64,000 nt of DNA, taken from positions 2,542,001 to 2,606,000 of the forward strand of contig NZ_CP032100.1 of the NCBI RefSeq assembly GCF_003544815.1. Reading direction: 5' to 3'. Each line of letters begins with the position of its first letter. The first letter of the stretch is position 1. Position numbers and translations under genes: made by a program. A model generated the notes under the pieces. It saw only the letters and a list, made by a program, of their open reading frames with translations. It did not search any database and was not told the DNA's origin. Of the stretch, positions 2,678 to 3,708 are shown in pieces. The stretch comes from Arcobacter suis CECT 7833. GTDB lineage: Bacteria; Campylobacterota; Campylobacteria; Campylobacterales; Arcobacteraceae.

Positions 2678-3424
2678 TCAAATATCTCCTCTTTCTTTTT
2701 CACCACTATAAGATGAAATCCCATAATCTAAATTAGCAACTGATTTAAAACCTAAGTCTTTCATTATTCTTTGACAATAAGCACTTCTACTACCACTTAA
2801 ACAATAAACAACTACTGGTGTCTTTCTTTGATTCATTATTCTCTCTAATGCATCATAAAATGATGTTGTAGGGATTAAGTAATCTGTTCCTTTGATTCTG
2901 TTAGAAACCCATTCCATCCATTCTCTTGTATCAACTAAATTAAAATTAATAAAACCTAATTCTCGTGCTTCTAATAAAGATTCTAATTCTATAGAATTTA
3001 TTTCATCTTTTGTCAATATCTTCTCACACTCTTCTTTACTTAAGCCTCTTGAATGAGTTGCAATAGCATCATGTAAATTATTATCTTTTGCAAATTCTAA
3101 AGCTTTTTCATTAGTACAAAAAATTCCACAGTGACATGAACCTTTTGTTGGTATTTCATTAGTTAATGCAGGAGTGCATGGACAAAGTCTATTTTCAGTT
3201 GATTCTTGTTCCTGAGCAGTTTGTCCAACTACCATAAAACATGGACAAAACTTTTTCCCATAAATCATTTGATTTCTAGTAAGTCCCATTTGAATTGATT
3301 GATTTACTTCTGAATCTGGGTTGTAAACTAAATTATGATTAGAAATTACATCATCAGTAAATTTCTTTGTTATTTCTAATTCTTTTAAAAATTCTTCACT
3401 ATTCGTATCTATTTTTCTTATCAT
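2678..3424 (-). CDS. Ferredoxin-thioredoxin reductase catalytic domain fused to a rhodanese domain
   Basis: The 248-residue protein joins two redox/sulfur modules. Residues about 1-115 carry the cysteine pattern of the ferredoxin-thioredoxin reductase catalytic chain: CPC at 60-62, CPC at 81-83, CHC at 97-99 plus Cys103 (HCGIFC). In that family these residues hold a 4Fe-4S cluster next to a redox disulfide. Residues about 150-245 form a rhodanese domain with the active-site loop VVYCLSGSRS (Cys208). Spacing between the second and third cysteine groups is longer than in plant-type FTR. The natural inference is a reductase that works on a persulfide or thioredoxin-like partner with electrons from ferredoxin; the substrate is unknown. 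It is a single gene with an AAAGGA-like binding site and shares a terminator with the permease. Confidence 0.85.
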   Translation of the reverse strand: MIRKIDTNSEEFLKELEITKKFTDDVISNHNLVYNPDSEVNQSIQMGLTRNQMIYGKKFCPCFMVVGQTAQEQESTENRLCPCTPALTNEIPTKGSCHCGIFCTNEKALEFAKDNNLHDAIATHSRGLSKEECEKILTKDEINSIELESLLEARELGFINFNLVDTREWMEWVSNRIKGTDYLIPTTSFYDALERIMNQRKTPVVVYCLSGSRSAYCQRIMKDLGFKSVANLDYGISSYSGEKERGDI

Positions 3425-3492: not shown

Positions 3493-3708
3493 TTATTTAA
3501 GTATTGATAAATATAAATTTTCTACTTTTTTCCTAGCCCATGGTGTTTTTCTAAGAAAAGTCAAACTTGATTTTATTGATGGATCACTATAAAAACATCT
3601 TATATTAATACGATTAGATAATTCATCCCATCCAAAATGCTCAACAAGTGAATTTAGTATCATTTCTAATTTAATACCATGTAATGGATTATTTGGCTGT
3701 TCTATCAA
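3493..3708 (-). CDS. VF530-family small DNA-binding protein
   Basis: A 71-residue protein that matches the VF530/DUF2132 family along its length: [21 protein letters not shown], then [27 protein letters not shown]. Family members are small helical proteins described as DNA-binding; the biological role is not established. It is a single gene between the FTR-rhodanese gene and the tRNA-Thr, both on the minus strand, with about 68 bases to the next gene. The start ATG gives the full family N-terminus. Confidence 0.85.

Follow-up and report, generated by a model that had tools for sequence, protein, structure and literature searches.

In Arcobacter suis CECT 7833, the catalytic chain of ferredoxin-thioredoxin reductase (FTR) is fused to a rhodanese in one protein, which we tentatively interpret, by analogy with rhodanese-fused enzymes, as a single-chain ferredoxin- (or flavodoxin-) dependent persulfide or sulfane-sulfur reductase; we put this reading slightly below an even chance. 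The fusion is a clade-wide protein of free-living Campylobacterota, not a one-off. It is real, conserved and apparently uncharacterized, its domains being ordinary and their arrangement apparently without a known characterization; no paper on an FTR-rhodanese fusion or on a test of its function was found in the open literature searched. The preliminary description gave no strand; the gene lies on the minus strand of the window, the analyzed stretch of 64,000 nucleotides, where it runs exactly from 3424 to 2678, and the plus-strand translation of the same segment is riddled with stops. The features, in window positions, are as follows.

2678..3424, minus strand: whole fused gene, 248 aa, ATG start at 3424, TGA stop.
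3080..3382, minus strand: FTR catalytic (FeThRed_B) domain, residues 15-115, from Pfam (3e-32), the phmmer alignment and conservation in 68 sequences.
3011..3079, minus strand: linker, residues 116-138, with His124 in an H-S-[RK]-G-L segment, from conservation and predicted structure.
2681..3010, minus strand: rhodanese domain, residues 139-248, with the loop C208-L-S-G-S-R-S, from Pfam (4.2e-13), fold match and conservation.
3493..3708, minus strand: small gene, 71 aa, just upstream of the fusion and on the same strand.

Both domains that the preliminary description placed in this chain were recovered, with all their motifs. FeThRed_B (PF02943) covers residues 15-115 (E-value 3e-32, 111 bits, cut-off 22), and Rhodanese (PF00581) matches residues 160-240 as a single intact domain (E-value 4.2e-13, 50 bits, cut-off 22.2). 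The 248-residue chain contains C60-P-C62, C81-P-C83, C97-H-C99, C103 and the loop C208-LSGSRS, and it aligns in phmmer, over the cysteine motifs, with structurally characterized FTR chains from plants and cyanobacteria. By homology to known FTR structures, we take C60, C81, C83 and C97 to be the [4Fe-4S] ligands and C62 and C99 to form the redox disulfide; Cys103 is an extra cysteine, without a counterpart in the cyanobacterial chain in the phmmer alignment. The N-terminal half is thus an FTR catalytic chain by its Pfam score and its six cysteines arranged as CPC/CPC/CHC, and the C-terminal half is a catalytic-type rhodanese by its fold, catalytic cysteine and C-x-x-G-x-R loop. The same six-cysteine pattern and fold characterize the plant and cyanobacterial FTR catalytic chain (1dj7, 7bzk, 7c3f), whereas the fusion adds Cys103 and the C-terminal rhodanese and has no variable subunit in its genome or in the class sample. 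Against the model of the FtrB double selenoprotein (NF041072), the fusion scores 51 bits, the cut-off being 160, and both redox positions are cysteines. The protein is small and apparently soluble.

The homologue scan covered the 80 best named genome loci, and the survey of FTR chains covered 298 genomes of the class. The co-occurrence of the two domains, which the preliminary description had proposed to look for, was found throughout, both halves being matched in 80 of the 80 closest named relatives. These loci belong to Arcobacteraceae, Sulfurospirillum, Sulfurovum, Sulfurimonas/Sulfuricurvum, Hydrogenimonas and unclassified Campylobacterales, the nearest named locus among them (90% identity) coming from an Aliarcobacter bin. 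A few metagenome bins with other names, such as Desulfosporosinus or Helicobacter pylori, look mislabelled, their sequences being placed among Arcobacteraceae-type rows of the tree. By a scripted check, 77 of the 80 loci have one ORF of more than 200 aa with the FTR motif; all seven FTR-domain cysteines are present in 76 of these 77, and C-x-[STV]-GSRS in every one. At the other three loci (L064, L096, L106), tblastn matched both halves in the same frame.

Among 68 aligned fused homologues, the invariant positions include the six FTR cysteines, Cys208, Gly211-Ser214, Asp165, Arg167, Glu168 and His124, while Cys103 and the linker residues S125 and G127 are each conserved in at least 90%. The fusion is retained across the sampled divergence, from 50 to 90% identity to the window protein. 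The two active sites are under selection together, which suggests that both work. In the class survey, an FTR chain was found in 101 of the 298 genomes and a fused-size ORF, as judged by ORF length, in about 87; among the genomes listed, the fusion is almost wholly missing from families f2 and f3, taken to be Campylobacteraceae and Helicobacteraceae.

Other origins of the arrangement were considered and rejected: (i) fusion by chance, frameshift or assembly, given the same architecture at the 80 best loci, (ii) carriage by phages, since no phage record matched the fusion and one viral contig has an FTR chain alone, and (iii) carriage by plasmids, for which there were two records only, one of them a rhodanese alone. 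On the viral contig (IMG/VR, L113 3989-4312), the stand-alone FTR catalytic chain adjoins an ATP-dependent DNA ligase gene, and no PHROGs family matches this chain.

The rhodanese half fits 3tp9 with a Z of 16.6 (1.1 A over 98 residues), and its closest folds include Npsr, CoADR-RHD, CoA-persulfide reductase and persulfide dioxygenase-rhodanese fusions. Npsr, CoADR-RHD and CoA-persulfide reductase (3nta, 3ict, 6pfz, 8a56) have in common with our protein a disulfide-reductase module followed by a C-terminal rhodanese of about 100 aa; their electron module works with FAD, NADH and CoA, whereas that of the fusion is of the iron-sulfur/ferredoxin type and has an unrelated fold. Pfam found no pyridine-nucleotide FAD reductase domain in the fusion, which may work like these enzymes though it is no member of their group. 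In the known rhodanese-fused persulfide reductases, electrons come from NADH through flavin. In Npsr and CoAPR, the rhodanese cysteine is described as the first sulfur acceptor, from which the sulfur passes to the reductase module, and the rhodanese cysteine of CoAPR is persulfidated in cells (PMC7969121, PMC9405070). With an FTR module in place of the FAD/NADH module, a ferredoxin-dependent persulfide reductase would be predicted, and this precedent makes the previously suggested transfer of electrons from ferredoxin to a persulfide plausible.

Two further systems are comparable in part. Unlike the FTR fusion, persulfide dioxygenase-rhodanese proteins have a metallo-beta-lactamase fold and oxidize persulfide with O2. 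What they share with it (5ve3-5ve5) is a redox sulfur module joined to a C-terminal rhodanese, the rhodaneses being 28-32% identical. The ferredoxin:disulfide reductase (FDR) of Methanosarcina acetivorans carries a rubredoxin domain. The fusion, in contrast, has a rhodanese and no rubredoxin match in Pfam, and is not an FDR of this type; the M. acetivorans control genome resembles the fusion's class in having no FeThRed_A match. The two proteins are taken to share FTR-type active-site [4Fe-4S] chemistry; FDR is mentioned in PMC7278568.

The variable subunit, earlier described as absent from the neighborhood, is also absent from the genome and from the class sample: FeThRed_A (PF02941) matched 0 of the 298 genomes, that of A. 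suis included, and the Synechococcus control was positive. The fusion is thus not a classical heterodimeric FTR. Likewise, no thioredoxin gene was found next to it, as had been stated; the genome has thioredoxin genes at other sites, and one of these adjoins the gene of a 312-aa pyridine-nucleotide reductase fitting TrxB, in a trxA-trxB-like pair. The proposed link between ferredoxin and sulfur chemistry need therefore not be thioredoxin-independent, since these thioredoxins may still be substrates of an FTR catalytic chain. The main alternative is a ferredoxin:disulfide reductase acting on thioredoxin or another protein disulfide, in which the rhodanese would serve as a regulator, sensor or dock, for example with activity switched upon persulfidation of Cys208. 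It agrees with the retention of every catalytic cysteine in the FTR half, with the match of this half to FTR catalytic chains, including the thioredoxin-bound structures 7c3f, 7bzk and 2pu9, with the thioredoxins of the genome, and with the rhodanese-free paralogue described below. However, a TrxB-like reductase for thioredoxin is apparently present already, the variable subunit is missing, and an invariant catalytic loop in the rhodanese goes beyond the needs of a mere dock; we consider this alternative rather doubtful.

For a ferredoxin-dependent persulfide reductase, the genome offers two gamma-type subunits of 2-oxoacid:ferredoxin oxidoreductase (POR) and many 4Fe-4S ferredoxin-type matches. 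Besides the fusion, it has nine rhodanese-domain matches, and soxB is present. No Npsr-type fusion was seen, as the listed rhodanese and pyridine-nucleotide-reductase matches fall at different places. Outside the window, a 401-aa frame of the same genome (G000:C1:197070-198044) carries three tandem rhodanese matches.

Many relatives keep a stand-alone FTR paralogue that lacks the rhodanese and lies apart from most fused chains in the tree. The 11 sampled stand-alone chains of Campylobacterota form one group, in a tree that is based on few columns and weakly supported at its deep nodes, and such a chain may sit directly upstream of the fused gene in tandem. On a plasmid of Sulfurovum mangrovi (L032 8001-8755), the FTR chain and the rhodanese are separate adjacent genes: a single-domain rhodanese gene, whose product is 42-50% identical to the rhodanese of the fusions, follows the stand-alone FTR chain gene by 65 bases. 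This indicates that the two activities associate with or without fusion. A thioredoxin-family gene lies about 1.7 kb downstream of this pair. Some relatives have a third FTR-type architecture, in which a diverged chain is followed by a tail of about 100 residues without a Pfam match (L146 978-1598, also L147 and L148). In another relative, the second FTR chain (G039:C1:187723-188008) is interrupted by in-frame stops, which may reflect either gene decay or an error of sequencing. Because the stand-alone chain in L025 has a pckA-type gene as its neighbor, an initially suspected link to ribonucleotide reductase was abandoned.

The AlphaFold2 model, built from 68 sequences, has a pLDDT of 92.6 and a pTM of 0.64, which we read as well-built domains whose mutual placement the prediction does not fix; the linker is predicted as a helix-loop-helix. 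The uncertain placement of two confident domains, together with their separation in Sulfurovum mangrovi, would fit a historical fusion of independently acting domains, such as two thiol functions in the cytoplasm whose co-expression is convenient. Retention of the fusion over the 50-90% identity range and the invariant His124 of the linker argue against this explanation, and we hold it to be improbable. A long distance between the rhodanese active site and the cluster would refute a persulfide reductase only weakly, because in the crystal structure of CoAPR from E. faecalis the two catalytic cysteines come no closer to each other than 26.6 A (PMC9405070).

Clustering of the ORFs around 77 loci revealed no conserved sulfur-metabolism neighbor. 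The neighbor clusters consist of clade-specific genes of housekeeping type (ruvB, AI-2E transporter, panB-type, rplI and hslUV, as named from sequence) and of the tandem stand-alone FTR chain. In A. suis, the downstream flank is a convergent AI-2E-type transporter gene. The product of the upstream 71-aa gene resembles VF530-type small proteins; a homologous gene precedes the fusion, at a distance of 17-78 bases, in no more than 11 loci, all of them close, and it is therefore probably outside the function of the fusion. No promoter or terminator signal above chance was found at the fusion gene.

Housekeeping-type neighbors in many relatives, as well as MoeZ/MoeB-type C-terminal rhodaneses as the best NCBIfam matches on the rhodanese side, could point to a biosynthetic sulfurtransferase for Fe-S assembly, tRNA thiolation or cofactor sulfur, without net H2S, whose FTR domain would regenerate the Cys208 thiol or reset an over-oxidized rhodanese. 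Yet neither an activating (ThiF/MoeB-like) gene nor an acceptor gene, whether fused or adjacent, recurs in the neighborhood clusters, and in two families of the class that are expected to need the same cofactors most of the sampled genomes lack the fusion, so that we judge such a role unlikely. An FTR chain is present in each of the 55 class genomes in which SoxB is matched over its full length or a long part of it, and 48 of them have a fused-size ORF. Of the 101 FTR-positive genomes, 46 lack such a match; these include 11 of the 14 in family f10, a family with FTR chains that group with Sulfurospirillum. This overlap is weak support, because it is confounded by phylogeny and could be explained by shared ancestry.

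For the persulfide reductase, the following sequence of steps may be envisaged. The Cys208 of the rhodanese would take up sulfane sulfur, with polysulfide, thiosulfate or a persulfide of low molecular weight as the donor, giving Cys208-S-SH. The mobile rhodanese would then dock onto the FTR domain, where the interchange cysteine of the C62/C99 pair would attack the persulfide, possibly helped by Cys103 or His124. Finally, the C60/C81/C83/C97 [4Fe-4S] cluster would pass two ferredoxin electrons, one at a time, so that H2S is released and the thiols are restored; this last step is known chemistry for FTR.

We favor a persulfide reductase as the best single account of a catalytic rhodanese fused to an FTR chain without a variable subunit, because (i) both active sites are invariant in the fused homologues, (ii) the C-x-x-G-x-R loop is typical of sulfurtransferases and the fold is near those of Npsr and CoADR-RHD, (iii) Sulfurovum mangrovi pairs both parts unfused, (iv) FeThRed_A is absent while POR gamma-type and ferredoxin-type proteins are present, and (v) no Npsr-type fusion is among the listed matches of the genome. 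This reading is weakened by the unfixed domain interface, by the lack of a conserved sulfur-metabolism neighbor and by the TrxB-like route already present. A new activity across the lineage, in which the FTR module would use ferredoxin electrons to reduce the persulfide on the rhodanese directly to H2S, we regard as possible, though with the chances leaning against it.

The fusion protein is common in the class. If the proposed activity is true, it would provide anaerobic and sulfur-cycling Campylobacterota with a way to process sulfane sulfur at low potential, extend the chemistry of FTR beyond thioredoxin, and tie the ferredoxin of central metabolism to sulfane-sulfur handling in the free-living members of the group.
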